64,000 bases of DNA, taken from positions 1,302,001 through 1,366,000 of the forward strand of contig JAIWND010000004.1 in NCBI GenBank assembly GCA_025330725.1, written 5' to 3'. This document shows positions 2,677 through 61,169 of the stretch, piece after piece. The number at the start of each line of letters is the position of its first letter. Positions within the stretch are counted from its first letter, which is position 1. The position numbers and the translations under genes are program-made. The notes under the pieces are model-generated. The model worked only from the letters and a program-made list of their open reading frames with translations, was not told where the DNA came from and did no database searches. The stretch comes from Chlamydoabsidia padenii. Lineage: Eukaryota; Mucoromycota; Mucoromycetes; Mucorales; Cunninghamellaceae.

Positions 2677-3550
2677 TTTTTTATATATGTGCCGGAGTGG
2701 GGTTAAGAGTAAAGGGAAAGGGAAAGAAAAGAAAAAGGAGGAAAAGCAAAGGGTGGAAAACTTTATATCCACTAAAAAAAATTTTTTTCGTCACATTTGA
2801 TTGGTCGGAGTCTTGTTTTTCTTTTCCATCAACCAGGGGTAGGCTCGAAAATAGCTTTTTCGATAGGGTGATACCCGACAGGCAGAAAGCTTCCTTTCCG
2901 TGTAGAAGCTGACGTCGAAGAAATCATTTCTTATCCCGCATCTCACCAATCAGACCATGTCCCCTAACGTTTGTCTTCTATCATACACATAGAAGCAACA
3001 TCATCATGGCTCTGGGATTTTAGGATCTCCATGAATTCAAATCCCGGCATCCTTCCGACATTAGGGAAAAAAAACAAACACGCCAGCATCAAATCCCTCC
3101 CCCTTGATTCGGCGTCTTTGGTAAGAAAGCCATCACGCATAAACAGTCTATCTGAGAGAAAGGTAAATGCACACGAGGGAACCGGGAACCCTTGGGAGGA
3201 AGGAAAAGTTTAATTTCAGGTGCGGAGACACTCGGGTATGAATTCTTGTTGACTAATTCGCCGCATAGGTCAAGTAGACTGTCTTGATCCCATCTTTCTC
3301 CCCTTCCCCCTTTTTTCTTCTTCTAACAACCATCTTGATTTATGAACAATCCTGCTTGGTCGATTTTTTGAGCCATGCCAAACGAATGAATACTACAGTA
3401 AAGAAAACGACCAATGGGAGGAAGGCGGAATTTGAAATTAGGACCACCCACAAAACGATTCTTTTTTCATTTTTCCTTCTCTCCCCTCTTCCTCCCTATC
3501 CTTTTTTTATTTTTTATTTTTTCTCGAACCGACTTACAGTGTCATATCTT
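2677..3550. other. Divergent intergenic region AAC / ISA2
   Basis: Two CCAAT-type boxes are visible (TGATTGGTC near 2800; CACCAATCAG near 2945), suited to the carrier promoter. A TTCAAATCCCGGC match starts near 3038 and the ISA2-proximal element is listed separately. Short open frames here have no domain and look random. Confidence 0.5.
3425..3437 (+). promoter_or_regulatory. GCGGAATTTGAAA promoter element (ISA2)
   Basis: Variant of the window-wide GCGGGATTTGAAA element, sense orientation, 114 bp before the ISA2 ATG and followed by a pyrimidine-rich leader. Function is inferred from recurrence alone. Confidence 0.5.
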
Positions 3551-4217
3551 ATGTTTCGATCAGCACTATCACGCCATTGTTTACCAAGATCTCTCTATTC
3601 ACCACTACTGGTACCAAGACCTTTGATTACCTCATACAATCAACGGCCACTTTTGTATCGTACTTATGGATCACATGCAATCGACGACAACAGCAGTAAT
3701 TTATGGAATGGTGCGATAGTCAAACAAGCTTCAAATGAATCTGGAATTAACATTACCGATAGGGCTTTAAAGGTAATATAACTTGATCAAGAGCATAGCA
3801 AATGTTGTGCCATGTTACTAATCTCTCTTCATGACTCAGCAACTGAAATACATTGCCGAACGAGACAACGACCCCAACCAACTATTGCGTGTCTTGGTAG
3901 ATTCAGGTGGCTGCCACGGATTCCAAAACAAGATGGAATTGACCAACACAACCGACGAAGATGACTTGTAAGTTGATGTGTCGACTTCTTATCAGTCATA
4001 AACTAACTTTTTGGTGTATGATAGTGTGTTTGAAAAGGACGGTGTACGAGTGGTGGTGGACGGTGTCTCTTTACAATATCTTCGGGGGTCCAACGTCGAC
4101 TTTGTGGAAGAATTGATTGGATCGACCTTCCAAGTGGTGGACAATCCAAACGCCAAACACTCTTGTGGTTGTAACATCTCTTTTGATATTGACTTGGATA
4201 TGATCACTCAAAACTAG
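3551..4217 (+). CDS. ISA2: Mitochondrial iron-sulfur cluster assembly protein (ISA2/IscA type)
   Basis: A-type Fe-S carrier acting late in mitochondrial [4Fe-4S] assembly. Exons 3551-3772, 3840-3967 and 4025-4217 give 180 residues. The first ~45 residues are rich in Arg, Ser, Leu and Tyr with almost no acidic residues, as in a mitochondrial presequence. The IscA fold follows, with GGCHGFQ (Cys about 99) and a C-terminal SCGC (Cys about 164 and 166), the three family ligands. The segment DDFVFEKDGVRVVVD is typical of ISCA2/Isa2 rather than Isa1. The DDF codon is completed across the second intron. Confidence 0.9.
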
Positions 4218-4759
4218 TTATAGTATTTATTCCCCACATAAATTAGAACCTCCCCCCCTTTTTTTATATATACTCTGTATTCCACTTTTTAATTAATAAT
4301 AAAAATCTCTTTTTATATTGCTCTAAGACCTTTGACCAATGAACCCAAGTCTTATTTTCATATAATGTTGTCCCATCCCTTCAAGTTACACTTTGTTATA
4401 CAGTACAGTATCTATACATAATTCACTCTATGAATACATTTCATACAATGTATGATACCATCAAAGCGAACTTTCCTTACCTTTTTGGGCAGATGAATAC
4501 TCGAAATTTGCCATCCCGCCCAACGAAGACCCTGATAAAATTTGAACAGCATCTTTTCAATACGTTATACAGTTTCTCTAAACAAAATGATCCAACGACA
4601 TTTATTTTGTACCAATGATTAAATTAATGGTGTATACATTAGAGTGTCCTTGTTTAGACAAATGAACAATTTTTAATCGGTGGTTCCGTTTCGGCAGCTG
4701 CTTACCAAATGGCAACATTTTAAACGCCAGCCCCAGCATGATTTACATCAATCTACGGG
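4218..4759. other. Intergenic, no gene seen
   Basis: ISA2 3' flank with AATAATAAAAATC-type polyadenylation signals. A frame at 4430-4618 has no domain and lies next to repeat sequence, so I treat it as chance. Confidence 0.4.
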
Positions 4760-5400
4760 AAATGCCAGGCGCACGGGGGCTTGGAATAGCACTACTCACC
4801 CAATTGTTAACAGATGCTAATGATTAAAGTGGTGATCTGGACATCACAGCCTATTTCCAACAAAGTTTACATAATGGCCATTGTACCAACTACCTTTCAT
4901 GGAGCAATATAGCTTCAAGATCGTTTCAACCTGACTATTGTGAAATTGGACAGACGGGACCAAACTTATTTTCAAAACCCGCTTACCCTCACCTTGAATC
5001 TTGGGAGAGTTCTACTGCCTTAATGGACAAGTGATGCTAATGACAAAAGTGACCATTTGCATTCCTTAGCCTATTTCCAACAAAGTTTAATAATGACCAA
5101 TGTACCAAGTCCCTTGTATGGAGCAATATAGCCTTAAGATCGTTTTACCCTGACTTTTGTAGAATGAAAATGGACAGACGAGACCAAACTTCAATTCATT
5201 TTCAGATCCCGCCTGCCTCTGCTAAGATTTGGAAAAGCACTACTCGCTCCAATTGTAAACGGATACTAATGAGTAAAGTGGCGATGTGAACACTATAGCA
5301 TATTTCCAACATAAGTAACCGCAAAAGCTAAGCTCCAAGACTCTTATGTCGGTCAGTCCAGACTTGCGATGACTTTTACCTGTACTTTGTAAGAAAAAAA
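4760..5400 (+). repeat. Dispersed repeat family R, three tandem units (~220-230 bp)
   Basis: Units recur around CTATTTCCAACAAAGTTTA (4851, 5071, and a diverged third near 5299), followed by a segment reading AATGGCCATTGTACCA and then ATGGAGCAATATAGC and AAGATCGTTT. Unit spacing is 220 and about 229 bp. Related copies are at 25.8-26.0 kb (same strand) and at 37.7-38.4 and 9.3-9.5 kb (opposite strand). No open frame is conserved among copies, so it looks like a non-coding mobile or satellite-like repeat. Each unit contains a CAAAACCCGC or CAGATCCCGC segment resembling the gene promoter element. Confidence 0.75.
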
Positions 5401-5934
5401 AGGACGAAGTAACAAAACCATATAGCTGTCAGGTAATTTTGGTTGCACGGGCACAAAAAAAAAGCATGAATTTTACATGATTCATCATGTATATAGGTGT
5501 TATCTATCGTGATACATAAATCATTCATGATAGAAACACCTTTATTGATAAACGCATTTATATTGACCAGCAAACATATGATAAAACAAGACTTTATTGA
5601 CATTAAGATTCAATATAACACTATGTCTACAATAAAACTAATCTACCACTATTGTTATCCACAAGATATCATATTTTGATCTTGCTGGACCAATGATTGG
5701 TTTGCCATTCATATATATCCCCAGTTGCAATCAAGAGATGTACCATCATCGTACTTGACCACCCAACCCACCCTTAATGTCCACCGCGTTTGCGATAGCA
5801 TTATTATTCTTTTCAACCAAAGCCTACTGCACTCCATTCAGAGAATGTCGTCCTATTTCCCAGTTTGTTGTATCAGACAAAAAAGAGATTCGTCCAGGAT
5901 CAATTGGTAGGTATTGATTCTACATCAACTTGAA
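5401..5934. other. Intergenic, no gene seen
   Basis: AT-rich sequence between repeats. Short frames on both strands carry no domain and no credible splice structure. Confidence 0.35.
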
Positions 5935-6160
5935 TTGAAAAGTATTAGTATTAGAGTCTTGGGTAAGGTGATTGTCCAAGAAGAAAGATACAGTATACAT
6001 TACTACCACTTTCTCTTTGTACCTTTCATTTACCTTTGCCGTGTTGATCCTGTTTGGATATCTTCCAAGAGAGCCCATTACTACCACAGTCAGTTGCTTC
6101 GTCACCTCTTTTTGTTTATCTTCATCATTCAATCGTTACAACAAATGGGAGTTCCTTGTT
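5935..6160 (+). repeat. Repeat pair S, copy 1
   Basis: About 150-200 bp resembling the reverse complement of 24440-24680: both have AGTATTAGTATnAG, GTCCAAGAAGAAAGA or ATCCAAGAAGAAAGA, then ACTTTCTCTTTGTACC-like sequence and TTACCTTTGCCnnGT. In one frame both copies can encode QEER-S--Y--FLFVP followed by YLC-V. It may be a fragment of an old duplicated gene or mobile element. Confidence 0.45.
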
Positions 6161-6546
6161 GAAGAGGACCAAGTTGAATGTCTTTGGAATGTAAATTCAA
6201 AGAAGAAGGAAATGCTTTTTCGCCAAGTTGTTAAAATCCCGCCACATTGCCAACTATGAAAACGCGATTTCTAAAATTCCTTTTCTTTCCTTCTCTTTCC
6301 TCTTCTTTTTTTAAACTCCACTATACAAAAACCTCCCCTTTAAACAAACTTTCTCCAAGAAGCTGTGCTTGACAGACAAGCTGTCCCCCGCACTCATTCC
6401 TATTGCTGGCCATGATTACAAGATGGATTAATTAACACACAAAAGTAATCAATGAATCACCTAATGGCTGTCTATATGAAAAACCTGTTTTCTGGTGGAT
6501 GTAATCTCATGGCTTCCTCCCTCTTATTGAGATTCTCGTCATAAAG
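6161..6546. other. Leader of the exon-intron array, no gene seen
   Basis: Contains an AAAATCCCGCC element-like match near 6234 followed by a pyrimidine-rich tract and CACTATACAAAAACCTCCCC, resembling the promoter layout of real genes here. It may be the promoter of the transcribed array that follows; this is inference. Confidence 0.3.
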
Positions 6547-8216
6547 GTAAGTCAATGCATCTTGAATGATACACTGCCAAAGTTGTCACTGTTTTATACT
6601 CTAACTGAATTGTTAATTATTTACACTAGGTTTATGCTCCCTCTTTGCCTCTGATATGTGAAGTCTCCTGTTAGTAGTCAAATGGATAAGTTGGCAGATT
6701 TTGCGAGGCGGCTACCTTTGTGTAGAATAGTGATTAGGCCCAGTCTTTTTACCGTGGCAGGACGTAGGCGACATCGTGTCCTGTTCCACACCTGGATCTG
6801 CTAACGAATGGGTTGTGCTGGTAAAACAGGATGTCTGGTATGTTGAGGCATTATTGTGGATCTACCTATTCTCGGGCATGTTGCACTAGCCACCAGTTAT
6901 GGCGCTCCATTTGATTCTTGGGGATGAATCATGATGTACAATGTTTATGGGTACTTTATTGTAAGTAAAGAAGAAAAAAAAACATTAAAAGACAATGTTA
7001 CTAATCACACTTCTTGTTCTTATTGCAGGTTTGTCTTCCGGTATTGTTACTTGCCTTCGATGTTTATTGTCACTTGTTGTGTATGATCTCTCTCTGTCCC
7101 TGATATGTGAAGTCTCCTGTTAGTAATCAAATGGATAAGTTGGCAGATTTTGCGAGGCGGCTACCTTTGTGTAGAATAGTGATTAGGCCTAGCCTTTTTG
7201 CCGTGGCAGGACGTAGGCGACATCGTGTCTTGTTCCAAACCTGGATCTGCTAGCGAATGGGTTGTGCTGGTAAAGCGGGATGTCTGGTATGTTGAAGCAT
7301 TAATGTGGATCTACCTATTCTCGGGCATGTTGCACTAGCCACCAGTTACGGCGCTCCATTTGATTCTTGGAGATGGATCATGATGTGTAATGTTTATGGG
7401 AACGTTATTGTAAGTAAGGAAAAAAAAACATGAAAAGACAATGTTACTAATCACACTTCTTGTTCTTATTGTAGGTTTGTCTTCATGTATTATGGTTGGG
7501 CGTTCTTCCTTGATTGTTTTATCTGGTGTTTCGTGGTCTCTCTTTGCTTTTGGTACAAAGTAAGTAAAGAAGAAGAAAACAACATGAAAAGACAATGTTA
7601 CTAATCATTCTTCTTGCTCTTATTGTAGGTTTGTCTTCATTTATTGTTACTTGTCTTCCATGTTTAATGTCTCTTGTGGTGTGTGAACTCTCTCTCTGTC
7701 CCTGATATGTGAAGTCTCCTGTTAGCAATCAAATGGATAAGTTGGCAGATTTTGCGAGGCGGCTACCTTTGTGTAGAATAGTGATTAGGCTTAGCCTTTT
7801 TGCCGTGGCAGGACGTAGGCGACATCGTGTCTTGTTCCAAACCTGGATCTGCTAGCGAATGGGTTGTGCTGGTAAAGCGGGATGTCTGGTATGTTGAAGC
7901 ATTAATGTGGATCTACCTATTCTCGGGCATGTTGCACTAGCCACCAGTTACGGCGCTCCATTTGATTCTTGGAGATGGATCATGATGTACAATATTTATG
8001 GGTACTTTATTGTAAGTAAAGAAAAAAAAACATGAAAAGACAATGTTACTAATCACACTTCTTGTTCTTATTGTAGGTTTGTCTTCATTCGTTATGGTTT
8101 GGCTTTATTCCTTGATTGTTGTCTCTGGTGTTTCGTGGTCTCTCTTTGATTCTGGTACGAAGTAAGAAAAAAACAAGAAAAGTCAAGATTATTAATTACA
8201 TTTCTTCTGGTTGTAG
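6547..8216 (+). repeat. Tandemly duplicated exon-intron array
   Basis: A ~280-bp core (starting TGATATGTGAAGTCTCCTGT) occurs at about 6652, 7101 and 7703. The last two copies are almost identical; the first differs by a few percent. Six intron-like segments punctuate the array: 6547-6629, 6961-7028, 7410-7474, 7560-7628, 8012-8076 and 8162-8216. Each has a GTAAGT or GTAAGA donor and a (C/T)AG acceptor, and the four central ones carry ACTAAT branch-like sites. Segments between them alternate ~381, 85, ~383 and 85 nt, so a 602-bp double exon was duplicated. Downstream exons begin GTTTGTCTTC or close to it. No long frame crosses the array. It runs into a gag-like frame at 8.26 kb. Confidence 0.7.
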
Positions 8217-8256
8217 GTTTTGTCTTTCTGTTGGTTGTTTCATACTTGGTTTATTT

Positions 8257-8631
8257 AATACGGCAAGGAACGGCGTGAATGACAAGATCTTCTCCAACGC
8301 CTACTTGGAACGACGACAACGGACTAGATTTCCAACTTTTGCAACGAAAGCACAGCAATGGATGGCAAGATACGAATCTCTGGCGGAATTCTTTGCCTAC
8401 ACTCCTGTGGAAATTGTGAAAAAACTACAAGCTGTGTTGGAAGGTCAAGCTTTTAGTTGGTATACTCGGCTACAATGTACTACCAAGAAGGACTGTGTGG
8501 TACTGAATGGCAAATTCTTACATCAATATAATGAAGACTCATATCCTGTTATGGCGGCTGTTGACGAACTCAAGTTAATCAAGCAAGAAAAAATGGCAAT
8601 TGGTGAACTGGCTTTTACATTATTACAGTAG
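8257..8631 (+). pseudogene. Truncated retrotransposon gag-like fragment
   Basis: About 125 codons resemble the retrotrans_gag region of LTR elements: WMARYESLAEFF, VKKLQAVLEGQAFSWY (the typical hydrophobic...W[YF] segment), then LNGKFLHQYNED and VDELKLIKQEKM. The frame stops right after IGELAFTLLQ. No zinc knuckle, protease or reverse transcriptase follows, and no LTRs are visible. The preceding intron-like segment ends at 8216, so the fragment may be the last exon of the array transcript. It is probably a relic; co-option cannot be excluded. Confidence 0.6.
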
Positions 8632-9189
8632 TGTTAATTATATTGTCATATTGTGTTGGTTATTATCCCTTATCTCCCCATAGACCTTCTATTATAAATA
8701 TCTACATAATCTTATTAAATCAACTACTTATCTTATTCACTACCCTTTGCTGTCTTATAACTTGACAGGGCTACTGAACTTTTGACGTACAGTTAATTGC
8801 CCAATTACATTATACGGTTTTTGCTGGACTTCCCATTCCCATATATGGATTTGAAAGGGGGCGGTTTTTTGATAAATATGTACAATAACCTTGATGCATC
8901 TACATGTCTTCACTCCATCTGCATATCTTGATTTTATCTATATGTCTTCTATTCATCTATATGTATTGTTGTATATATAAATGCCTTTTTTTCTTATCTG
9001 GGTGTCCTTTTATTAATTTATATGTGTACTATATGTGTTTCTTCTGTCTATATGTATTGCTACCATCTTTACCGCCTGCATCGACCTGTATTGCAATGTA
9101 TCGGTCGGTGTCACCATTGTTTAAATGTACGCCTTTGTGGCACCAGTATCGGATCTATATAAATTTCAACATTGCGGTATTGACCTGTA
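8632..9189. other. Intergenic, low-complexity pyrimidine-rich DNA
   Basis: Degenerate repeats of TCTATATGTCTTC/TCTATATGTATTG type between about 8900 and 9070. The frame at 8904-9200 reads through this repeat and is not a gene. Confidence 0.45.
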
Positions 9190-9545
9190 GCCACCCATAA
9201 TCACTATATCCATCTATATAGATAAAAGTCGATTTGGGATGGCAAAAAGGTATCGAGGTCGCGCATGAATTTCGGGATATGAAAGAATATTTGTCTGGTT
9301 CCTCTTCGTACTTTCTCTTTCTTTTTCTTACAAATGACAGGTAAAAGCCAGTGCAAGCATAAACATACTGATACAAGAGTCTTGGAGCTTGGCTTTTGCT
9401 GTAAAGTATGTTGGAAATATGCTATAGTGTCCACATCACCACTTTAATCATTAGCATCTGTTCACTATTAAGCCAGTAGAGCTCCTCCCGAATACGACTA
9501 GGGAATAAAGGGAGGGCGGAGTTTACAACTGGTTGCTTCTCTGTG
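9190..9545 (-). repeat. Repeat family R, inverted diverged copy
   Basis: Read on the minus strand, 9500-9330 matches 5230-5400, including TATGTTGGAAATATGCTATAGTG and TAAGAGTCTTGGAGCTTnGC-like blocks written in reverse. The adjoining 9240-9196 matches 25675-25710 (CTATATAGATGGATATAGTG). The copy is therefore a mosaic of two modules found next to each other elsewhere in the window. Confidence 0.6.
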
Positions 9546-10052
9546 AATCTTCTTCCCACTTGCAAAAGGATTCCCAAATTGGAAGTCGGAATGTAAAAAT
9601 AAAAGTCGCCCTTGTATATACCGAAGTAAGATCACAAAAGACAAAAGTTACACTTGTAAAGTGTTTGTTCGACACAGGTTTTTGGTAATGATGGAGAACC
9701 TCCAATAAGATTATGTCTGTGATATTACTTTTTATTATAAATTATATTGGGTCAAGTTTTACAGACAAAAAGCTATACTAGAGATCACTATACTAGAAGT
9801 TAATGAGGGCGAGGATGATCACATTGTACCATATAGAATCCATTGTAGAGTTGAAAGTAAACTATAATAAACAGTTTGTTTTGCATGCTTGTTGTTGTGA
9901 TCAGCCCATTTCCATATCTTGATACAAAAGATTCATCCGTCCCGAGGCGATCAATTCCATCCAGGCATTTATGCCGCCATTTGATACTCTGGTTACTAGT
10001 ATTTCTTGTTGATAATTACGGCAGACTATTACACAATTGTTAAAATCGTCTG

Positions 10053-10054
<2 letters not shown>

Positions 10055-10127
<73 letters not shown>
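10055..10127. repeat. Poly-T tract, 73 nt
   Basis: Uninterrupted run of 73 T. It produces an artificial polyphenylalanine frame. The length is likely unstable in vivo and in sequencing. Confidence 0.9.
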
Positions 10128-11515
10128 CCGAGACACATACTCATTTTTACCCTGATTCACAAGGCACTTTTCTTGTCGTTAAGTCCAGCATTTTAATCTA
10201 CAGTTGGTGTCCTTTTTCAGTCGTAGGTATTGTTGTATCGTGATCATGTTGTCGCTTTTTAAGAGATTGTGGCAGCCAAGACCACAACAACGCAACATCA
10301 AGCTTTTTAGTAACAGAGCCCATAAGTTCCAGTAAGAGTAAACAAGTAGAATTATTAAGACTTAGTGCTGAATCGATTCGAAGGTACGAGGTTTTCTTTT
10401 CTTGAATGCCGTCGAACCGAGTTGAGAATCCAGCCTTTTTATTTCGACCTAAAACCAGAAGGAGGAGACACTGTAACGAGGATGATGGACAAGAGATGTT
10501 GTTGTTTTATCTTGAATGGACTTGTTTGTTAATCCACACATATTTTCAGTGAGTTCCATCATTTAGTTTCTTGTTATAATGAGTGGCGTTTCCTAAATAT
10601 CAAATTAGTATGCATGCAATTAGCTTTATGTAGTATCTATTACCATTCATCAATTGAGAGTGTTCATTTTTGGATGAGCAAGGTTGTCAAGAAGAGAAAA
10701 GAGAGAGAGGAGATACAGGAAAAAAAAAAAAAAAAAAGATCCCTTCAAAATTGGCGGGATTTCAAATGTCGTTCTTTTCAAAAATGCAGCTCCTCCCCCA
10801 AAAAGACTTTAAATTCCAGGTAGCATAACATAGAATACAACTTACATTAAATTTTATTGATGGTTTTACCAAAAGATTGCGTGCAGAAGAAGAGAGAGAA
10901 ATAAGCGATCATCATTGTTCATTTCAAAACCAAGATCGTCTTCAATTCGTCTGTTACACATCCGGTTCCGATTATCTCGGAAGGTAACCGTCTTTGTAAC
11001 TATCCTGATTAACAACAAACAAGTAATAGACGTTTAAACTAGAATGTTTATCTATGAAAACAAAGGGGTTTAACAAAAATAGAGATTTTCTTTTTACTGC
11101 AGTAATGCTGAAACAGAAGCACAAAGCATAAGCAAAACGTCTTCTTAACTAGGAAATCGAGTGAAGGGGGAAACTGCAACGCCCGCCCCCTTTGACTCCT
11201 CTCTGATTTAAATAATGGGTATGATAGAATATGTATGATAAAAAGAGGATGTTTATTCCGATGACATGAGTAAGAGAGAGAGAGAGAGGGTGATGATTGT
11301 GTCTTTTAGATAGAGACATGTTATAAAAAGTGAGAAGAATGATGAGGGAGAGGCAGTAATCATGGTAATATAATAATCATTGTTTTTCTATATAGGGTAC
11401 CAATAAAAAAAGCATAACAAAAAGAAAACATAGTATAAAAGACATACATATAAGTAAAAAGCATAAGTGAAAGTTCAAAAAAAAAAAAAAAAAAAAAGTA
11501 TGGGGTAGAGGAGGA

Positions 11516-11528
11516 GCGGGATTTGAAA
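11516..11528 (+). promoter_or_regulatory. Exact GCGGGATTTGAAA element, just beyond the Zn2Cys6 stop codon
   Basis: Perfect match to the recurring element but at the 3' side of the neighbouring gene, with no start codon assigned downstream on either strand. It may mark an antisense or unannotated transcript. Confidence 0.3.
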
Positions 11529-17786: not shown

Positions 17787-18290
17787 TCTCTCTTTGGCTA
17801 GTGTAGAAATTTAGTTGTAGAAATAGCTTTTATATATACTCCTATTAATACTTTTTACTACTATTCTTTTTAACTTTTTTTAATCTTGTATATCTTCATC
17901 TTTACACATAATAAATTCATTTTGATAAAGTCTTTACTCAAAGCGGGGGTCGAAAATACATACCTTTTGGGCACATTGGTGTAATGGATCATCCATGTTA
18001 AACTGTTTGGGAAGGAACAATAGTGGCACTTTGATACACTAAAACAAATCATTATGCATGGCAAGACATGACGACCTCCTCTCTCACTCTTTTTATGGAT
18101 TTGTATCAAAGTATAAAAATAAAACGCATGCTGTTTGTCAATGATATCTTTTTTCATACAGATGCAGCTTTGGGGGTGTGAAGCGGGATTTTAATTTAGA
18201 AAAAAAAAACCTCGACCTCAACTTCCGGGTTTTTTTTTTGTTTTTGCTTCTTTCTTTCTTTCTTACATTAATCTATATATACCAACCAAA
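17787..18290. other. Intergenic, kinase 3' UTR and RPC34 promoter
   Basis: Holds AATAAA-type signals near 17910, a minus-strand frame without domains, and the RPC34 upstream element. No further gene seen. Confidence 0.45.
18183..18195 (+). promoter_or_regulatory. GCGGGATTTTAAT promoter element (RPC34)
   Basis: Sense-orientation variant of the recurring element, 108 bp before the RPC34 ATG. Confidence 0.45.
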
Positions 18291-19624
18291 ATGGATGTTG
18301 CCCCAGGAACAACAGACAGCAGCAATCCTCATGGCCTTTCCAATGACGAATGGGCTTATTACCAGTTTGTGAAAAACAGTGGCAAGGTAGGATACACATC
18401 TTCCTCCTTCCTTCAAACTTGACGATTGATCTGTTTTTTTTTTTTTTTATTGTTTTTTAATGTAGGGTGTCAAATTTGATGAACGACCTCAAGACATGGA
18501 GATGAATACTGCTATGCAAGCCTTGAACATTCTATTGAAGAAGGTAATCAACAAAGAATAGACCAACTTGTATACTCACTTTGTTTTACAGAATGCATTG
18601 GAAGTGATCCAGCTTAATGGGGAAAACATGGTACGAGCCATTGATCTACGGGATGCTGAAAAGTAAGTCAACAACAAGTAAACGAACGATCATGATTAAC
18701 AATATGTGTTCTCTCTGTTTTTATTTGAATAGGGCAAGCCGTTTGAACGATGAACAACGTATTGTGTATAATGCTATCCGAGCTTCCGGTGGGGATGGTA
18801 TCTGGACCAAAGATTTGAAAAAGAAGACCAACTTGCACACCATTGTACTAAATAGAACTCTGAAAACACTCGAACAAAAACAGGAAATCAAATCTGTCAA
18901 ACATGTCAAGGTAAAATGGATGAAAAAAATAATAATAATAAGAGTATATGAATTGTATATAACTTTCTTTTTTTGTTGTAGTATCCGACACGCAAGATAT
19001 ACATGTTGTTTGATACGACTCCATCAAGCGAAGTGACTGGTGGTGCATGGTATACAGATCAAGAATTGGATACAGATTTTATCGACAGTTTGAAGGCGGC
19101 ATGCTTCAAATACATTCTGGGAAGAGTAAGTTGGTCCAAAAAAAAAAGTAGTGTATGTGTGGGTGATCATCTATTCTAACCGTCTTTATAAATGTATAAT
19201 ATAGAGTTTCCCTCGGAACGAAACGGCCCGTGATGCAGTTTATGGTGCCGACTATGAACATTACCCCACAGCAAGCGAAGTACGACGGTTTATCACAGAA
19301 TCAAGAATCTCCTCTATTGATTTATCGGTCAAGGATATCGGCAGTTTATTAGATGTATTGGTGTATGATGGTGAAGTGGAAAAACGATTGCCTTATATGG
19401 GTGGAATGGAAGAACTCAGCGATGATGAAGACGACGGGGCTCTGGGCGAAGAACATGGTATTCAATGGATTTACAAGGCATCAAGGAAGACTCGATCTCA
19501 TCTCCCAACTGAAGCCTTGACTGAAACTCCTTGTGGTCGATGCTCCGTTTTTACTTTTTGCAAAGAAGATGGTCCCATCTCACCCTTCTCTTGTGAATAT
19601 TTTAAAGATTGGTTAGATTGGTAA
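18291..19624 (+). CDS. RPC34: DNA-directed RNA polymerase III subunit C34 (RPC6)
   Basis: Subunit of the RNA polymerase III initiation trimer (C82/C34/C31) that contacts Brf1 and helps open tRNA and 5S promoters. Six exons (18291-18386, 18466-18543, 18592-18662, 18733-18910, 18982-19125, 19205-19624) encode 328 residues, close to the family norm. Tandem winged helices are apparent: LNDEQRIVYNAIRASGGDGI and TKDLKKKTNLHTIVLNRTLK lie in WH2. The C-terminus has CGRC-x5-C-x10-C (PCGRCSVFTFC...FSCEYF), matching the cysteine motif that binds an Fe-S cluster in human RPC39. An acidic loop (LSDDEDDGALGEE) precedes it. The stop lies 143 bp from a convergent small gene. Confidence 0.95.
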
Positions 19625-20448: not shown

Positions 20449-20461
20449 TTTCAAATCCCGC
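20449..20461 (-). promoter_or_regulatory. TTTCAAATCCCGC promoter element (20522 gene)
   Basis: Exact reverse complement of GCGGGATTTGAAA ending 61 bp before the ATG of the reductase gene, followed by a T-rich leader. Confidence 0.5.
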
Positions 20462-22059: not shown

Positions 22060-22071
22060 GCGGGGTTTAAA
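22060..22071 (+). promoter_or_regulatory. GCGGGGTTTAAA promoter element (22150 gene)
   Basis: Sense-orientation variant, 79 bp upstream of the ATG of the secreted/membrane protein. Confidence 0.4.
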
Positions 22072-22149
22072 TATTACACATGACCCTGCCCGAAAAAAAT
22101 AAAACTGCTCTTTTTTTTTTTAACTCCTTTCTTCTCTTTATGATCCACT

Positions 22150-23790
22150 ATGCTACATCAATTAGTGGTTGTTTTTTATATACTACTATCTTTTGTTGTA
22201 GCACAAAACACTGACTTTGATATTACTATTGATCACTTTGAAACCCACGCTGAACTTGATAAAGGTAATGTCTTTAAGAAAAAGAAAAAACATGTACTGA
22301 TGACTCATTTTGTTGCTAGATCTAGACCCTCTGTTTACTGTGGAATACAAAAAGTGGTATAAAGTAGTGACAAATCATGCCGTCAATCAAAAGTATGCTC
22401 TCGTTTGTTGTGGTGAAGGATCAACTGACTTGGATCACGAACACTACGATGCAGTTATTAACATTCCTGTAAAGACGGTGGGTGTAAACGGGGCATTCAA
22501 TGTACTTCCTTTTATTGACGTAAGTGACTCATACCTGAAATGACTCACTGATCTATCTAACCTATCTATCTATCTTGACTAGTTGTTGCATCTTCAAGAC
22601 ACGGTGGCATTCATCAATGGGTACGAAAATGTCACCTCTCCTTGTTATGCAAACGTCACGAAACAACAAGGTACGTCTGATATTGTATTCGTAGCAACTG
22701 ACGGTGCCACTGCTGGGAAAAACAGTATTGTGTTTTCCGCTAATGATAACCAATTGACTCCCCTTGCGGTAAGTAGTAAAATACAAAAACAAGATAGTAT
22801 ACTCAATGGGCACTTTTTTATTTATTTAATTGACTGTATGTATATAGAAAGCGGAATGGTTATTATACCTATCCTTCTTTTTCGACAAGGAAAAAGAAGC
22901 AATGAATATACTTGATACGATAAAACAAGAATACAACTGTCATGCATCCAACCTTGCCACCACATCAAAACGACCTTCTATTGCTTGGACATTTTATCAA
23001 CAAGGTGAATGGTACATGTATCATGAACCTTACTTCCAACAACTATTAAAGGATTCAGGTAAGACATCTTTTTAATCATTCAACATAACTAACGATGCAT
23101 CTTCTTTTAAAACGGTAGGATCTCAATTGGTGATTCCTTCGGTACCTCTTCAATTCCATAAAGATATTCATAATGCAGATATGGTAATCGATCAAACGGA
23201 TTTGGCAAAGGATTTAGGTGATGGTGATTCTACTTATCAAGATTGGCTTGGAGCTGGGAAGTTTGAACCTGGAACAGTCAGTTTTGATCAAGCTTTTATA
23301 CATCATAATGCCTTGTATCGTGTGGATGGACTGACAGATGAAAAAGGATTTCTTGATTGGACTCAGCGTGCAGCTGCACGACCTGATCTTGCTTTAACAG
23401 GTACTATACTGTACAGTATATATAAAGATGATTAACCAACTTTGTTTTTATTTTTATTTTTTACTATTATTAGATATGATTCATCTCAGTTATCCACTCT
23501 ATGATCGATCTTATAAATATGTTTGGTTACGAAACTTTGCTAAAATGGATCATGTTAAAACACTATCATCAACCACTTACTCTTGCACCAACAACCCCTT
23601 GGATTCAATCACATCTTGTACTCTACAAAAAAATCTTTTTGGTGAATCAAGTTCTTCCTTCCGCCATCCTGGGAACGTTGGTATTATTCTTGGTATTCTG
23701 GTCACCACTGGTTTCATCATTTGTGGTGTGCTCTTTTATAGAAACCGACGTCAAGTCAAGCCTGAATACTTTCCCCTTGATAATTTTTAA
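22150..23790 (+). CDS. Secreted, membrane-anchored protein with periplasmic-binding-protein-like ectodomain
   Basis: Six exons (22150-22264, 22320-22519, 22583-22768, 22848-23058, 23119-23400, 23474-23790) give 436 residues. Residues 1-18 are a signal peptide (LVVVFYILLSFVVAQ). The ectodomain has HFETHAELDKG, YKKWYKVVTN, YALVCCGEGST, a repeated aromatic/charged pattern and NVT glycosylation sites. A single C-terminal helix (VGIILGILVTTGFIICGVLFY) is followed by basic RNRRQVKPEYF, giving a type I topology. The strand pattern (YKVVTN...YALVCCG; TVAFINGYENV; EWLLYLSFFFDKE) recalls the TroA/helical-backbone substrate-binding fold annotated on some fungal surface proteins; this is a visual impression. 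Metal or siderophore capture would be a guess. Confidence 0.75.
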
Positions 23791-25718: not shown

Positions 25719-25795
<77 letters not shown>

Positions 25796-26060
25796 GCAGA
25801 ATAAAAATTGACACACAAGACAAAACTTAGTTCAAAACCCGCTTACTCTCGCCTGGAATCTTGAGAGCTCTATTGTATCAATGAACAAGTGATGCTAATG
25901 ATTAAAGTGGCGATGTGGATATTATAGCCTATTTCCAACAAAGTTTACATAATGGCCATTGTACCAAGTCCCTTGTATGGAGCAGTATAGCCTCAAGATC
26001 GTTTTATCCTGACTTATGTAAAAAAAAAAAAGTTGCAGAACGAGAAGTCAGAGAAAAATG
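25620..26060 (+). repeat. Repeat family R, single copy with expanded A tail
   Basis: Contains the shared blocks CTATTTCCAACAAAGTTTAC, AATGGCCATTGTACCAAGT, CCTTGTATGGAGCAGTATAG and TCAAGATCGTTTTA. The 5' side starts with the module also found at 9196-9240. CCCTGACTTTTGT is followed by 69 A, whereas the next homologous point (CCTGACTTATGT) has 11 A. Position-specific A tracts hint at a retroposon-like origin; copies at 4.8 and 37.7 kb have only short A or T runs there. Confidence 0.65.
25724..25792. repeat. Poly-A tract, 69 nt
   Basis: Uninterrupted run of 69 A at the A-rich position of repeat R. Confidence 0.9.
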
Positions 26061-27431: not shown

Positions 27432-27512
27432 GTTGATAGAATCGGAAAAAAAAAAAAGGAAGAGAAAGAAAGAAATCCAGCCCGGGCGCCAAGTTTCATT
27501 ACACAAAGGAAA

Positions 27513-27524
27513 TTCAATTCCCGC
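27513..27524 (-). promoter_or_regulatory. TTCAATTCCCGC element in the FabG / flippase promoter
   Basis: Variant of the recurring element 82 bp before the reductase ATG and about 150 bp before the flippase start, so one site may serve both genes. Confidence 0.4.
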
Positions 27525-34854: not shown

Positions 34855-35354
34855 GACAAGTGGAAGTGGAAGAAGAAGGAGGACTAAAAATAAAAAATAA
34901 GATCGGCAAAGTGGCTAAATGATCGGAATTTGAATATGGCCGAGACAAGTTTTTGTGTGCCATTACGATAATCATACGCTTTTTGCGATCTTTTTTTTTT
35001 ATTAAGGTTTCACCATCAGAGTGGGAAGGATTTGATAAAGATCTCAATGAACAATGGAAAGATCCAAGGATATGGTAAGATGTAAAAGAGGAGAAAGAAG
35101 AATGACCTCATATTAAAAGATGTATGGATGCCTCTATCAAAAAGAAACTTATAATATCAGTAGTAGTAGCAGAATAAGGTAGGGAAGGATGTGGGCTTTT
35201 TTTTTTTTTTTTTTGCTTTTTACAAATATGTATAGTAGAGTACGAGTGGCCACTTTGTTTGTAAGAAAAAAAAAAAGGAACCGGCGAATTGACCAATTGA
35301 TAGTTGATAGAATAGTTTCAAATCCCGCATTTGATCAATTGGATAAACACCCCT

Positions 35355-37689: not shown

Positions 37690-38405
37690 TATTCTGCGTC
37701 CTTTTTTACAATAGACAGGGTAAAACGATCTTGAGGCTATGCTGCTCCATACAGTGGACTTGGTACAATGGACATTATGTAAACTTTGTTGGAAATAGGC
37801 TAAGGAATGCACATAATCACTTTTGTCATTAGCATCACTTGTTCATTAAGCTAGTAGAGCCCTCTCAAGATTCAAGGTGGGGGTAAGCGGGTTTTGAAAT
37901 AAGTTTGTTCTCGTCTGTCCATTTTCATTCCACATCCTTTTTTTTTATCCAAAATTCAGGGTAAAACGATCTTGAGGCTATACTGCTCCATACAGTGGAC
38001 TTGGTACAATGGCCATTATGTAAAATTTGTGGGAAATAGGCTGAGGAATGCACATGGTCACTTTTGTCATTAGCATCGCTTGTTCATTAAGCCAGTAGAG
38101 CTTTCTTAAGATTCCAGGCGAGAGTAAGCGGGTTTTGAACCAAGTTTTATCTTGTGTGTCAATTTTCATTCTGCATCCTTTTTTTTTTAGAAAAGTCAGG
38201 GTAAAATGATCTTGAGGCTATACTGCTCCATACAGTGGACTTGGTACAATGGCCATTATGTAAACTTTGTTGGAAGTAGGCTAAGGAATGCTCTTGGCCT
38301 TTTTTGTCATGAGCATCACTTGTCCATTGAAGCAATAGAGCTGTCGCAAGATTCAAGGCGAGCGTAAGCGGAGTTTGACCTCGTCTGCCCATTTTCAATG
38401 TGGTT
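37690..38405 (-). repeat. Repeat family R, three tandem 240-bp units (inverted)
   Basis: GGGTAAAACGATCTTGAGGC (or AATGATC) begins at 37718, 37959 and 38199, a period of 241 and 240 bp. Each unit continues with GCTCCATACAGTGGACTTGG, TACAATGGnCATTATGTAAA and TCATTAGCATCnCTTGT, the reverse complement of the 4.8-kb and 25.9-kb copies. Each ends with TAAGCGGGTTTTGAAA-like sequence (37889, 38127; diverged at 38366). Divergence between units is a few percent, so amplification is not ancient. Confidence 0.8.
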
Positions 38406-38597
38406 TTGGTAGAAGTGAAAGGTTAGTATTCAAGTTAAATTTTTAACATCCGACAGCTTTTCGAACTTCTCTCATCTACCAGTCTTTATGAAACGTCTTG
38501 GCATCGGGCAGTGTATATTTTACGTCTCGGGTGAGGCACCCACACGAATTAGGGAATAGCTCAAATGAAATGTCTGTTGAATTACAACGTTTCGATT

Positions 38598-38610
38598 TTT
38601 CAAATCCCGC
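38598..38610 (-). promoter_or_regulatory. TTTCAAATCCCGC promoter element (DED1-like)
   Basis: Exact reverse complement of the recurring element, 83 bp before the helicase ATG, followed by a pyrimidine-rich leader. Confidence 0.5.
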
Positions 38611-42022: not shown

Positions 42023-42035
42023 TTTCAAATCCCGC
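42023..42035 (-). promoter_or_regulatory. TTTCAAATCCCGC promoter element (Dad2-like gene)
   Basis: Exact reverse complement of the recurring element 95 bp before the ATG; a T31 run (42071-42101) follows in the leader. Confidence 0.5.
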
Positions 42036-49067: not shown

Positions 49068-49080
49068 GCGGGATTTGAAA
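49068..49080 (+). promoter_or_regulatory. GCGGGATTTGAAA promoter element (CCCH gene)
   Basis: Exact sense-orientation match 80 bp before the ATG, preceded by GGGG. Confidence 0.5.
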
Positions 49081-53076: not shown

Positions 53077-53078
<2 letters not shown>

Positions 53079-53107
<29 letters not shown>

Positions 53108-53113: not shown

Positions 53114-53219
53114 GAAGAAAGACGTTAGTTAAATAGATAAAGGGTGAGAAAAAAAAAGTCGCTATATTGTTTAAGGGGGCATGACTTGGGCCTTTATGAA
53201 GGTTGCACACTTGTTTGTA

Positions 53220-53670: not shown

Positions 53671-53843
53671 CTATCCAACCATCTTTCACGTTTCCAAGAT
53701 TACATACGTAGATGACCAATTCTTTTATTATAAAGAGTACTTTGGGGGTTACAGGAGAGGAAAAAAGAAAGAAAAGAAAGCAAACAAATAAAAAAAAGAA
53801 AAAAGATATTTGTAATCCCTCCCATCAACTCCAGTGGGTGTAA

Positions 53844-53856
53844 TTTCAAATCCCGA
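53844..53856 (-). promoter_or_regulatory. TTTCAAATCCCGA element
   Basis: Near-exact element in the gap between the possible roadblock gene (starts about 180-240 bp away on the minus strand) and the transporter 3' end. It supports a real promoter for that small gene. Confidence 0.35.
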
Positions 53857-54042
53857 TGTGGTACTTTTTCATCTGACTCTCCAAAGAGGTAACAAAGATA
53901 AAACGATACCATACCCGCCATTTATACAGACTCCCTAGTCGACTAACCTCTCTCTCAAGTATTTAAAGGCTGTAACAACATAAAACCACTGAATCTAACC
54001 TTATTACTATGTATAATTTTTATTTTCTGTCTAAACTTGAGA

Positions 54043-55965: not shown

Positions 55966-56837
55966 GTCATGTATGTAGGGAAAAGAGGAAAAGAAAAGGA
56001 TTGAATTGTTATATGGATATTTTATACTCTTATTAGGGGAGGTTGCAATGGTGCATGGGAGATTTATTTTAACATTCAAGCCCCGCCTGCATGAACTGTC
56101 TCCTTGTTGGGGGCGACCTCCCCTCATTGAGGGTCTTTTTGTCTGGACGTAAACATGTATCGGGATTTCAATACTTGTATGATTCAAGGATGCCTGGTTA
56201 AATCAATAATCTATTATGCAATATCAACCAATTTATTATACTATTCATGATTACGGCCGAGGGATCTTCCTTTTCCCACTTCATTTTGCTCGTAAATGCT
56301 ACTGACACCATCAGCCATCTATAAGCCCGACTTGCATGGGCAGAGACAACTGAAAAAAGGAACAAGAACATCAGATTAAGTGATATTACAGATGATGAAT
56401 GATTTGCAAACAGCTTCAATTAAGATAGGAAGAAAAAGAAAAAAGAAAAAAAAAAGACTAACAATGTTGAATGTAAAAGTACCGCTGTCACCGGTTCCCT
56501 TCGTCCCATTACAAGAAACATCCACATGTCGACGCTTCCATGTTTTGTCAAGTGCATGTATTATGCTCAGCATTCTCACTGGTAAAAATCTGTACAACGT
56601 TTCTTTTTGTTCAAACGACTAACTTGATTATGTAGTGACCATTCTCATGAATGAGCTGGTTTCGAAAAAACGATAATGCATGAATTCAATATTTAAGCTC
56701 CGATAACTTTTATAGACATTAAAAAGACGTTATTAACTGAGAAGACGTTAATAACCGAGTTCATTTTTTATTTGTTAAACCATATAACAAACATCTGTTT
56801 GGAAACTTTATTTTTTTATAGTGCAGATTTGGTTCTT
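55966..56837. other. Intergenic between transporter start and metallothionein stop
   Basis: Holds the transporter promoter. A minus-strand frame (56376-56597) contains ALDKTWKRRHVDVSCNG and ends at a GTTAGT donor, with a possible continuation after TTTTCAG at about 56350; no family is recognised, so it is not called as a gene. Confidence 0.35.
56075..56086 (-). promoter_or_regulatory. TTCAAGCCCCGC promoter element (transporter)
   Basis: Variant of the recurring element 109 bp upstream of the minus-strand ATG at 55965. Confidence 0.4.
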
Positions 56838-57144
56838 TCAGCATTTGCATTGTCCTTTTTCGCACGAACATCCTGTTCCGCTCCCTAAAATAAAGTTGAG
56901 TGGATTGCTTTTTTTTTTTTTTTTCATCAATAGGAATGACTACCTCACCTTTACATGCACAGGAATTGCTATGTTGTGCTTTACAATCAGTGCATTTACA
57001 GCTGTTTTCACATTTACAAACACCAGTAGATTGGCAGCTTTATACAAAGAAAAGAATATCAGGATCAACCAAAGAGTCTTTTCTTTCTTTTTTTCAAATG
57101 AAGACTTACGAGCATTCATTATTTTCTTTACAAGGGCAGGCCAT
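56838..57144 (-). CDS. Metallothionein, 56 residues, 15 cysteines
   Basis: Three small exons (57110-57144, 56949-57037, 56838-56884) total 171 nt. The product starts MACPCKENNECSC, continues VCKCENSCKCTDCKAQHSNS and CACKG, and ends CSCEKGQCKC. The 15 Cys lie in CxC, CxxC-like and CKC arrangements, there are no aromatic residues, and Lys alternates with Cys: the textbook metallothionein composition. It should bind Cu, Zn or Cd in the cytosol for storage and detoxification. All splice sites are good (GTAAGT/AAAG, GTGAGG/TTTAG), and intron phases 2 and 1 keep the Cys pattern. The leader lacks the common promoter element. The family subclass is uncertain. Confidence 0.9.
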
Positions 57145-57753
57145 AGTTGAGAGTGAGATTATAAGAAGGAAAGAAGAAAGTAGAAACCAAAAAGAAGGCT
57201 AAAGAGACTAGATTTATAGTCTTCAAAATAGCCTATCGTTGAAACTTCGGAAAATTCCATTTGACCAACATATACCGACTGAGTCATTTTTCACTTGACA
57301 TCTTACTTTTTTCCCCACGGTATGATTTCCATATCACTCATTTTCATTCGACAGCCCATGCATTCATGCACATAAATTAAAGTGGCGCTTGAAATTTGAT
57401 GTGTCTAGAAGGGTCATGTGTTGTAAAGGAGGGAGAAGCGAGTGTGTTCAAGGGGGTGTGCATGGACAAGGACAACATGGTAGAATGAGAAGAGACATGA
57501 ATGATTTTACCATTTTTGTTTATTATATAAGGTGATAAAGAAGATAGTAGCTATACTAAACTAAACTAATAAAGATCGAGGTTATCATTGGAGGGTAAAG
57601 AGATACTTTTTTGGGGGGGGGGTACTAAAACTTTTTGTTGGGTTATTTTTCAAAATGGGGAGAACAAACTATTTACAAAAGGTATGTATAATATAATATA
57701 TGTATAAAGAGCAAAGTGTACAGAGGTAATAAAAAAGGGATAAGGGGGGTTGA
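57145..57753. other. Metallothionein promoter and SFP1 3' flank
   Basis: Upstream of the metallothionein start the sequence is AT-rich with several TTCC/GGAA and CATTC repeats; no clear metal-response consensus is recognised. A G9 run occurs at about 57613. AATAAAG and ATATAATATATG occur in the SFP1 3' side. Confidence 0.35.
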
Positions 57754-58997
57754 CTAAAACATGGGGGATAAACAAGAGAGTTCAGGTGAAGAGGAAGGAG
57801 ACAAGTTTGGTGTTGACATGGAAGAAGAAGCTTGGGAAGAAGAAGATAATGCGTGAGGAGGATACGATTGTTGTAAAAAGGTATTACTAAAGGAAGCCAA
57901 AGTTTGATTCAAAAACGCCACATGGGAATGTTCAATATGATACTTGAGACCGTTCAGATTTTTGTATCGTCGATTACAATCACCAAGAGTACATTGATAA
58001 GGTTTAGAAGCCACGTTTTCACTATCATCGGTAGCCAAATTGCAGTGTCCATGTTCATTATGATACTTGAGTCCATTTGGGTTCTTGTACGCCTTGTCGC
58101 ACCCTTCCACTGGACACTTGTACGGCTTATCAGCATGCAAATCTAAAAAAAAAAAAGAGAAAAGAGGGTTAAATAAAACTTTACATAATGAAAAGTGGGG
58201 AACTTACTTGAGTAATGGGCGGAAGATGCCAACAAGGCACCAGCATGAGCCAAAAAGTCTTCATCCGTAAAAAACCCAGCAGCAACACTTTGTGTAGTAC
58301 ATCCAGTAGCATTAAGAAAGCCATCATAAGGTTGTATGTTTAGTTTCTTCACTGCTGATTGAGCCACAAGATCAAAGGTCGATTGTTCAAAGGTTCGTTT
58401 CTTGCCAGCCATCATTGGTTTGCCCGTCTTCCTTGTTGAGTCATCATCACCATCGTCGTCATCATTGCGTTGTTGTTGTTGTTGTTGGCAAAGGTCAGAG
58501 AGGTATGCTGCGGCCTTTTTCTTCAGGTGATTTAGATCCAAATCTAGATTATTTTCAAACAGTCCTTGATCATCTTCCTCTTGTTGTTGAGCACCGTCGG
58601 TCGATCCTTCAGGTTGTCCATCGTCAAATAACACCATATCGTCATCACATTCGTCAACTTGTTCTTCTTCTTCCAATCGGACATGACATTCTTCATAATG
58701 TTGAAGCAAGTCATGGAGGTCATTCAGAATCAGGCCACAACAAGCAAAGTCCCGACAGTAACTTGCTTCCAGTTCGCGCGATTCAAAGGTATCCTTGACA
58801 TCTGTTTGTGGTTTGCAAAGTAAAAAGTCATAAGTACTATTTGTAAAAAGATAAAATAAAAGGGTCATGTTAATCAATGACGGCAACATTACTATTGCTT
58901 TTTTTTGGGGGGGTACTTACTCAAAGTTAATGTCATGGATGGGAGCAGAGATGGTGCTCATTCTTCGTACACTGTTGTATTCCACAGGAGCAGGCAT
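57754..58997 (-). CDS. SFP1: SFP1-type C2H2 split zinc-finger transcription factor
   Basis: Exons 58921-58997, 58208-58836 and 57754-58142 encode 364 residues. Sfp1 drives ribosomal-protein and ribosome-biogenesis genes downstream of TOR. Features: an N-terminal finger CRDFACCGLILNDLHDLLQH followed by YEECH (~46-70), characteristic of the family. An acidic Glu/Asp region follows, with a short Q run and a basic AGKKRTF segment. Then come two C-terminal fingers: KPYKCPVEGCDKAYKNPNGL...HNEHGH and KPYQCTLGDCNRRYKNLNGL...HIEHSH. The KNxNGLKYH phrase repeated in both is diagnostic. The C-terminus is Ser/Pro-rich. The second exon starts at 58836 so that DTYDFLLCKP joins in frame. Confidence 0.92.
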
Positions 58998-59162
58998 TTT
59001 AATGTAATGGTTTATATGTATTGTATAGTATAGTAGAATTCAAAAAAAGAGTGGGGGAATAGAGTAAAAGGGGGGAAGAAGAGTAAAAAGGTAAAGAAAA
59101 AAGTAAAGAAAAGGAAATTCATGGCAGCCTTTATAAAAAGACAGGTGTCGCACACAAAAATG

Positions 59163-59175
59163 GCGGCATTTGAAA
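59163..59175 (+). promoter_or_regulatory. GCGGCATTTGAAA promoter element (SFP1)
   Basis: One-base variant of the recurring element, 166 bp upstream of the minus-strand ATG at 58997. Confidence 0.45.
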
Positions 59176-61156
59176 ATCAGTTTATTCTTTCAACTCTATG
59201 TGTCTTCCATTTTTGGAAAAGCCTTGTTTTTCATAGTGCAACTTTTCACACCTCCCTCCTTTCAAGCCTCTCTTGAAAGCTAGTGAATACCACAACACGA
59301 TCATTCATTATACATGTCTGTTTTGAATAGATAATCACTTCATTTAGTATGTTAAAGGAAAAAAGCTTTTAGGGCTTTCTTTTCCAAACCAATTAGGGAT
59401 GTAACGTTACACGGCTGAATGGAACGGAGTGGGAAAGCTAAACCTTGCTCTTTGTGATAGTTTTTTTATACAGTGACTTTATGTTAAATAGGATTTACTT
59501 GGTTGAAGGGAGGGAACACTAAATGGATCAACACAAAGGAAAACTGTGTTGACAAACAGAGTCAAACAAGAGATTCTTCTAAAGAAAATAATAATTGTCT
59601 TGGAAAAGAGAAACAATATGTTAAGCTTTAGTTGATTTGATAGAAAGTCTCAACAAAATAGTTGGTCCTTTTGTAGTAACGTTAGTAAACAAGATGTTTC
59701 ATCCGCATTGTTGTGTTGTTTTTGTTGGTTGCTGGGTCCTAAACTATAATTTTTCGTACCCCGCCCGTTTTTAAGCTAGTTACTTGGAGATACCTTCATC
59801 TTTGTATTGTGTATCAATATCTTCCAAACATCAATGTAAGAGTGAAGGGAAAAAAAAACGGGACTCATGTAAAGAATGGATAGATGAAAACTTTAGGGTT
59901 GCCCATTTATTCATGCGAGAAACCCGTGCTGACAGGGGAAGAGAAAAAAAAAAAGCACTTTATACAACCCACCTTTGTTATCGGGGTTACCAAATAAAGA
60001 CATTAGGCATGGAAACAAAAAAATAAAAAGTATGATCGGTTTACGCCAACACCAAACAGTACTCATCATGGGAAAGAGACAGATTGACGGATTGCATTCT
60101 AAACTGCATCTAACATCAACCAAAAGTGATTTATGCAAATCCTCCTTGATTTTTTTAATCAAAATGGGTTCAAACAAATAAATCCCCAGTTTTTTCCTTT
60201 CCACCTTTTGCATGAACCTCCAATATGCGGATGTTCAAATACCCAAATCCCGATTCCCAGAGTGATCGGTCTCTCACTATCCACGTTCATGATGATGGTG
60301 TCACCAACTTAAACATGATGGATATAACAGATAGATGACACGACATCATGCGTAACCGAGTTTTGAAAAAATAAAAAATAAAAAGATTCTTAATGTACAT
60401 GTACATAATGTACGTTGTGTATGATATATGTGTGTCTTTGTTATGGTTCTCTCGTCAGGTTTGCTGGGAAAAAAGTCTGATCCTGCAAACCGCTCTCATC
60501 GATGTATTTGGAAAGTTGCCCATATGTCATTGTATCTCAACCTTTTTTTTTTTTCATATGTTGTTTGATTTTATTTGCGCCCTCTCTACCCTTTACATTG
60601 AAACAACAACTAAAGACAAACAAATCGGTATTGGCATCGTCTCTGTAAAGTAGGGCTTCCTTTTGCATCCATGGCGGTATTTAAAAAATAGCACCCCTGA
60701 TCCCAAATGCACTGCTACCTTGTTTTTTATCATCTCCAGTAACACAGTATAAAACAAAAGAAGAATAGGAACAAAAGAATAGGATAGAAAGAAGAAAGGT
60801 TCCATCCTATGGAAATCAGGTTGATGGAAAGAAAGAAAAAAAAAAGTCAGATAACTTGGATAATCATTTTGTCGAGTGGCTGGAGGGGATGATGACTCAC
60901 GTGGGTTCGACAGGGATCACTGTCAAAGCATCTAACACTGAGTTTGAACTGTCATCTTTTTTTTTTTTTTTTTTTCCTGTCAAATACGTCAAAGCTTAAT
61001 ATGATTGAAACGGATCATCCTTCAATTCTGATTTAACCTCTCAATCAGAAACTACTCGAAATGGAGACTTTCTTAAAACTTGCCGATATCACTTTCTCCC
61101 TTTCCTTTCTTCGCTGAATACATTTATCATGAAATCACCCAGGAATAGATCAACAT

Positions 61157-61169
61157 TTTCAAATCCCGC
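61157..61169 (-). promoter_or_regulatory. TTTCAAATCCCGC promoter element (URA2)
   Basis: Exact reverse complement of the element, about 490 bp before the URA2 ATG but only about 270 bp before the inferred 5' UTR intron, consistent with a promoter position. Confidence 0.45.

Follow-up and report, generated by a model that had tools for sequence, protein, structure and literature searches.

Genes of unrelated predicted function in a 64,000-nucleotide stretch of the genome of Chlamydoabsidia padenii (Mucorales, Cunninghamellaceae; contig JAIWND010000004.1, positions 1,302,001 to 1,366,000; hereafter the window) are preceded by variants of one short word, GCGGGATTTGAAA, and the locus therefore raises the question of whether this word is a general promoter element, a signal of cell-cycle control or a by-product of sequence repetition. 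Little has been described, to our knowledge, of how promoters are built in early-diverging fungi, and a search of the openly licensed literature for the element's words, for fungal promoter motifs and for Chlamydoabsidia surfaced no description of the element among the titles listed, which is weak evidence of absence. The comparisons reported here suggest that GCGGGATTTGAAA is probably the site of one abundant sequence-specific factor, a putative protein that would serve a sizeable fraction of the promoters used by RNA polymerase II, much as the yeast general regulatory factors Reb1 and Abf1 do.

The window contains seven exact copies of GCGGGATTTGAAA, each found at the position given in the initial annotation (Table 1), and 33 sites with at most two mismatches, against a mean of 1.91 (standard deviation 1.47, maximum 6) in 100 dinucleotide shuffles, which bears out the earlier observation of a shared element. 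Word counts over all 95 contigs of the genome (34,228,448 bases) gave 1177 exact copies (596 and 581 per strand) and 5405 copies with one mismatch, as compared with 0 and 18 for the reversed word. The degenerate form KCGGGDTTTNAAW occurs 7042 times and its reversed counterpart 31 times; the genome-wide totals for GCGGGATTTGAAA and KCGGGDTTTNAAW include copies within a dispersed 240-bp repeat, which is considered below.

The position of the element relative to genes was determined with starts from a two-strand hidden Markov gene finder, blind to the motif and trained on 207.6 kb of the C. padenii genome, the introns of which have a GTAAGT-like donor, a TAG acceptor and a median length of 71 bp. 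Gene names are those of the initial annotation, and the translations agree with them by eye for most genes. Some gene models are faulty, several of them containing stops and those of Dad2, the 35.5-kb gene and WD40 having deviating starts; because of this deviation, the starts of Dad2 and the 35.5-kb gene were taken from open frames. In the window together with C1:130001-170000, with the 240-bp repeat left out, sites with at most two mismatches have a density of 1.06 per kb in intergenic DNA, 0.11 in coding sequence (CDS) and 0.12 in introns. For genes whose CDS is 300 bp or longer, the density 50-100 bp ahead of the start was 3.6 per kb, and 19 of these 39 genes carry a site between -300 and -20.

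A left-out weight matrix, trained on six regions and tested on the seventh (seven regions, 204 kb in total, repeat masked), gave the same picture. At a threshold of 14 it produced 107 hits, namely 91 intergenic, 7 in CDS and 9 in introns, as compared with none for the reversed matrix and 2.0 in Markov sequence of third order. Between -350 and -20, 46 of the 80 predicted genes carry a hit (0 of 80 for the reversed matrix), and the hits peak 75-125 bp before ATG. A weight matrix set against random sequence and a search for a positional peak had both been proposed in the initial annotation, and both came out in favour of the element, distance being measured here relative to ATG. With an in-sample matrix at a threshold of 9.5 the count was 58 of 80 genes versus 5; this threshold is permissive, giving 14.2 hits in 64 kb of simulated sequence, and the main claims rest on the threshold of 14.

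Several observations weigh against so broad a role. The left-out matrix has no hit within -350 to -20 of 34 of the 80 predicted genes, and 22 of the 80 have a hit 20-350 bp after the stop, possibly belonging to the neighbouring gene. Two of five MCM genes are without a matrix hit of at least 11 within 600 bp. In the loci examined, 29 of 152 sites (overlapping loci counted twice) sit in the repeat, and 60 of the 204 kb were picked near known exact sites, so that the totals are raised. The original wording that the element precedes most genes needs correction to about half to three fifths of them (19 of 39 by mismatch, 46 of 80 by the left-out matrix). When distance is counted from the near edge of each site, twelve of the promoter offsets given with it agree to within 1 bp (ISA2, Zn2Cys6, promethin-like, reductase, 22150 gene, FabG-like, helicase, Dad2, CCCH, SFP1, 35.5-kb gene and velvet). 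The value of -108 for RPC34 is reached only by counting from the far edge, the near edge lying at 96 bp, and there is no ATG at the distances proposed for WD40 (-119) and the transporter (-109).

The element occurs in either orientation, without significant strand bias: relative to the gene, 23 hits of the left-out matrix lie on the same strand and 31 on the opposite one (p = 0.34), in agreement with the reported use of both strands, but not with a preference for one of them. Around 49 oriented sites (21 on the same and 28 on the opposite strand) a pyrimidine tract lies 40-80 bp downstream of the element (T 0.46-0.49, C 0.23-0.27), whereas a TATA peak is not clearly visible. Proximal position and breadth of genes would also be expected of a core-promoter element in fixed position, akin to TATA or Inr and read by TFIID, but the two strands are used about equally and the distances to ATG scatter over about 300 bp around the peak, which makes this explanation highly improbable.

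The gene classes that carry the element are diverse. All five paralogues of ribosomal stalk protein P1 that were examined carry the element between -173 and -193, with its strand flipped in one case, and the sixth locus examined, a P2-type gene, has none; these six were drawn from the 17 matches of the family. The P1 promoters are mostly unalignable, except that L062 and L063 are identical over some 50 bp downstream of the site, and the element is retained in these diverged paralogous promoters. As a separate observation, CATCCATC runs stand just upstream of ATG in the five P1 paralogues (L060-L064). In one histone cluster, H3 has a site at -99 and H4 at -110, and the shared H2A/H2B region has one degenerate site, -174 from the H2B start. 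By matrix, three of the five MCM genes have sites scoring at least 16, at -116, -106 and -110, and by the criterion of at most two mismatches one of five genes with a predicted start has a site. Scattered sites are also present in the six E2F/DP loci. Cell-cycle genes are neither preferred nor avoided by the element. Since it is shared by the genes of the window, by P1, by H3 and H4, by three of five MCM genes and by 46 of 80 genes at large, the element appears to be general rather than a cell-cycle signature. Cell-cycle specificity is not supported, unrelated genes carrying the element equally often, and cell-cycle control accordingly loses the equal standing it had been given at the outset. 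The genome-wide counts, the positional peak and the unrelated gene classes lend strong support to the alternative offered alongside it, that of a general promoter element.

Two further features of these cell-cycle loci were recorded. SBF-like words occur in the MCM promoters (L047, L048, L049 and L053), among them TTTCGTGATCAG, AATCGCGATCAG and AATCACGAAA, and may reflect SBF control of S-phase genes. Three histone clusters (C3:539430-542661, C31:166143-169175 and C78:864470-869797) are similar in content and partly similar in order, as if derived from segmental or genome duplication.

The repeat mentioned above is a unit of roughly 240 bp that is dispersed singly or in tandem and bears the element near one end. 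It had been overlooked in the initial annotation, and six of the 33 window sites fall within it or on its margin (Table 1). The repeat is also present in loci L001, L011, L019 and L025, and a two-unit query matched at least 123 pieces of the genome, 40 of 369 candidates having been scored. One might on these grounds trace the abundance of the element to a spreading repeat or mobile element and not to promoter function, several of the units carrying it and the 29 sites counted above lying inside. However, the other 123 of the 152 sites are outside the repeat, and the left-out matrix result was obtained with the repeat masked. Moreover, no similarity was seen among the 413-bp surroundings of 37 exact sites once the repeat, loci that overlap and a handful of brief matches (44-96 bp, covering the element and the T-rich tract that follows) are set aside. 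A repeat origin was rejected for about four fifths of the sites in the examined loci, and as an account of the element's abundance it is extremely improbable. No Rfam family matched at the gathering threshold anywhere in the window, the repeat included, and, no tRNA being present there either, a link to Pol III or structural RNA was rejected.

The internal structure of the element bears on the nature of its reader. Its consensus is [A/G][G/T]CGGG[A/G/T]TTT[G>A,C]AA[A/T], the weight matrix reads [A/G][G/T]CGG[G][A/G]TTT[G]AA[A/T][A/T] with weaker letters at several positions, and in close sites CGG, TTT and AA are almost invariant. The top enriched 8-mers of 64 promoters, AATCCCGC and AAATCCCG, are both words of the element. 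GTCGGG, a candidate second promoter word from 6- and 7-mer counts, was discarded, many of its intergenic cases being the TCGGG form of the GCGGGATTTGAAA element. The halves [GT]CGGGA and TTTGAA are found 27 times at spacing 0 versus three times across spacings 1-24, and with the right half inverted the counts are 0 at spacing 0 and 8 across spacings 1-24; spacing within the element is rigid. Among 44 NCGNNATTTGAA words GCGGGA accounts for 18, TCGGGA for 9 and GCGCGA for none, and among 71 CGGGANNNNAA words there are 30 with TTTG, 7 with TTTC, 7 with TTTA and 4 with TTTT. The likeness of the two halves to an E2F half site and the animal CHR, pointed out initially, still holds as a resemblance, but it goes no further, the halves being almost never apart and GCGCGA being absent. 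A possible resemblance to the ZNF143/THAP11 site of animals was also considered.

These counts bear directly on the proposal that E2F-DP heterodimers of C. padenii itself bind the element, having been released from Rb/MuvB partners and now acting as a general promoter factor. Genes for such proteins are predicted: the E2F_TDP profile has six loci above its cut-off in the genome, three of which translate as E2F-type (RRIYD; L031-L033) and three as DP-type (RRRVYD; L034-L036). In addition, GCGGGATT in part matches the familiar E2F consensus TTTSSCGC, MCM and histone genes bear the element, and in the 204 kb GCGCGATT (4 versus 0.7 expected) and GCGCGAAA (2 versus 0.6) exceed expectation, in small numbers. 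General use of E2F-like promoter sites has also been suggested for Cryptosporidium parvum (PMC3734150). The proposal is nevertheless unlikely. Position 1 is T (TCGGG) in 34% of matrix sites, the freedom between C and G that the E2F consensus allows at both S positions is not seen (GCGCGA 0 and GCGGGA 18 of the 44 words above), and the strict TTTNAA half is not explained by E2F. GCGGGAAA alone is little enriched (7 versus 3.9 expected in the 204 kb). Taken together, the counts of canonical E2F words there are mixed, two more of them standing at 3 versus 4.0 expected (GCGCCAAA) and 4 versus 3.9 (GCGGCAAA).

TTTGAA, which corresponds to the CHR core, adjoins the E2F-like half, and this arrangement suggests a CDE/CHR site in fungal form, or an E2F-LIN-54 hybrid, occupied by a complex of the DREAM/MuvB kind; the hybrid E2F/DP-LIN-54 motif of Caenorhabditis elegans can be counted as a parallel (PMC3093354). 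The expected partners were not found in searches of the genome: neither the Pfam TCR profile nor a plant-type CXC query detected a CXC protein, and the DIRP/LIN9 and RB_B profiles detected nothing, in each case with no match in a positive-control genome, although the plant-type query recovers human LIN54 from a structure library at 2.8e-23. Animal CDE-CHR sites have a four-base spacer. That spacer is absent from C. padenii, where [GT]CGGGA directly abuts TTTGAA, and the target genes of the element are not a cell-cycle set; a DREAM/MuvB-type complex is thus very unlikely to be its reader. Because of the rigid spacing, the missing E2F variants and the partners not found, a composite of E2F and CHR sites is not the default reading.

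A protein resembling the general regulatory factors is favoured instead, since E2F variants are lacking in the element, the DREAM proteins were not found in the searches described, and the DREAM-type spacing is lacking as well. Such a candidate factor would bind the element as one unit in double-stranded DNA, and once bound might keep the promoter nucleosome-free or recruit the general machinery. The element would in this way set or permit initiation inside the pyrimidine-rich stretch downstream. More tentatively, one factor, be it a lineage-specific regulator with no known counterpart or an E2F-DP pair without Rb/MuvB and with changed specificity, might mark most promoters of the Mucorales, a cell-cycle-type composite site having become the general promoter element of the order. 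About 7000 copies of one 12-13-bp word would provide a handle on this factor, as a single oligonucleotide could serve to fish it out, and the element should be usable for gene-start prediction and in synthetic promoters. E2F was lost in Dikarya. The element opens the questions of when general regulatory factors of the yeast type originated and whether E2F has taken on a new job in Mucoromycota.

Table 1. Sites of the element and units of the 240-bp repeat in the window (position 1 is the first nucleotide of the window; distances refer to predicted or putative gene starts).
Feature	Position	Strand	Context
Element GCGGAATTTGAAA	3425..3437	+	114 bp before predicted ISA2 start (3551)
Repeat units	4780..5420	-	Elements at 4970 and 5200
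Repeat, one unit	9272..9504	+	TCGGGATATGAAA element at its edge
Element GCGGGATTTCAAA, 1 mismatch	10754..10766	+	
Exact element	11516..11528	+	Within predicted intron of Zn2Cys6 gene model
Element TCGGGGTTTGAAA	12267..12279	+	70 bp before Zn2Cys6 start (12197, minus strand)
Element TCGGGTTTTGAAA	13987..13999	+	76 bp before promethin-like start (13911, minus strand)
Element GCGGGATTTTAAT	18183..18195	+	RPC34 start at 18291; near edge 96 bp, far edge 108 bp
Exact element	20449..20461	-	61 bp before reductase-like gene (start 20522)
Degenerate element GCGGGGTTTAAAT, 3 mismatches	22060..22072	+	Upstream of gene starting at 22150
Repeat, one unit	25780..26060	-	Element at 25830
Element GCGGGAATTGAAT	27512..27524	-	81 bp before FabG-like start (27431, minus strand)
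Degenerate element TCGGAATTTGAAT	34923..34935	+	Upstream of methionine-aminopeptidase-like gene (34854, minus strand); absent from initial annotation
Exact element	35316..35328	-	194 bp before 35.5-kb gene (ATG ~35522)
Repeat, three tandem units	37702..38423	+	Elements at 37887 and 38128; element of third unit decayed
Exact element	38598..38610	-	83 bp before DEAD-box-helicase-like start (38693)
Exact element	42023..42035	-	95 bp before Dad2-like ATG (42130)
Element TCGGGATTTGAAA	45329..45341	+	Near putative WD40 gene start; nearest ATG gives 110 bp
Element GCGGGATTTTAAA	47447..47459	-	217 bp before velvet-like gene (47676)
Exact element	49068..49080	+	80 bp before CCCH gene (49160)
Element GCGGGATTTAAAA	55347..55359	-	Transporter region, start putative; nearest ATGs give 90 or 124 bp
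Element GCGGCATTTGAAA	59163..59175	+	166 bp before SFP1-like zinc-finger gene (58997, minus strand)
Exact element	61157..61169	-	~500 bp before predicted URA2 start (61660)

Outside the features of Table 1, positions 6626-8796 of the window hold repeated blocks of 300 and 120 nt and, by eye, a gag-like open frame, and this segment looks like a retroelement remnant.

Among known systems, the promoters bound by LIN-54 in C. elegans contain a hybrid E2F/DP-LIN-54 motif with an accompanying T-rich motif (PMC3093354), and share with the C. padenii element, as do CDE/CHR sites, an E2F-like half next to a TTTGAA half with T-rich sequence nearby. Compared with CDE/CHR systems, C. padenii shows zero spacing, no E2F degeneracy and broad targets, and relatives of CXC, LIN9 and Rb proteins were not found in it. 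C. parvum is reported to have three E2Fs, two DPs and no Rb, and E2F-like motifs as its commonest upstream motifs, at 2379 genes (PMC3734150). The likeness to C. padenii lies in a GCGGG-type word upstream of many genes and in several E2F/DP genes, with no Rb known there; the words of C. parvum are, however, DTTGSCGCCH and TTTGGCGGGAAV, whereas the right half in C. padenii is TTTGAAA and GCGGGAAA is little enriched. The hybrid cell-cycle network of E2F and SBF outlined for basal fungi in two reports (PMC4862756, PMC10406608) likewise retains E2F/DP genes, the chytrid E2F motif being called unknown in the first of them, but the C. padenii element reaches beyond S-phase genes. The general regulatory factors of yeasts are thought to open chromatin and have been swapped between lineages (PMC2897762). 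They provide the parallel for the proposed role of GCGGGATTTGAAA. In budding yeast, the sites of Reb1, Abf1, Cbf1 and Rsc3/30 are likewise short and stand at promoters of unrelated genes; the C. padenii word differs from the known yeast words, and its use seems to extend to a sizeable fraction of genes.

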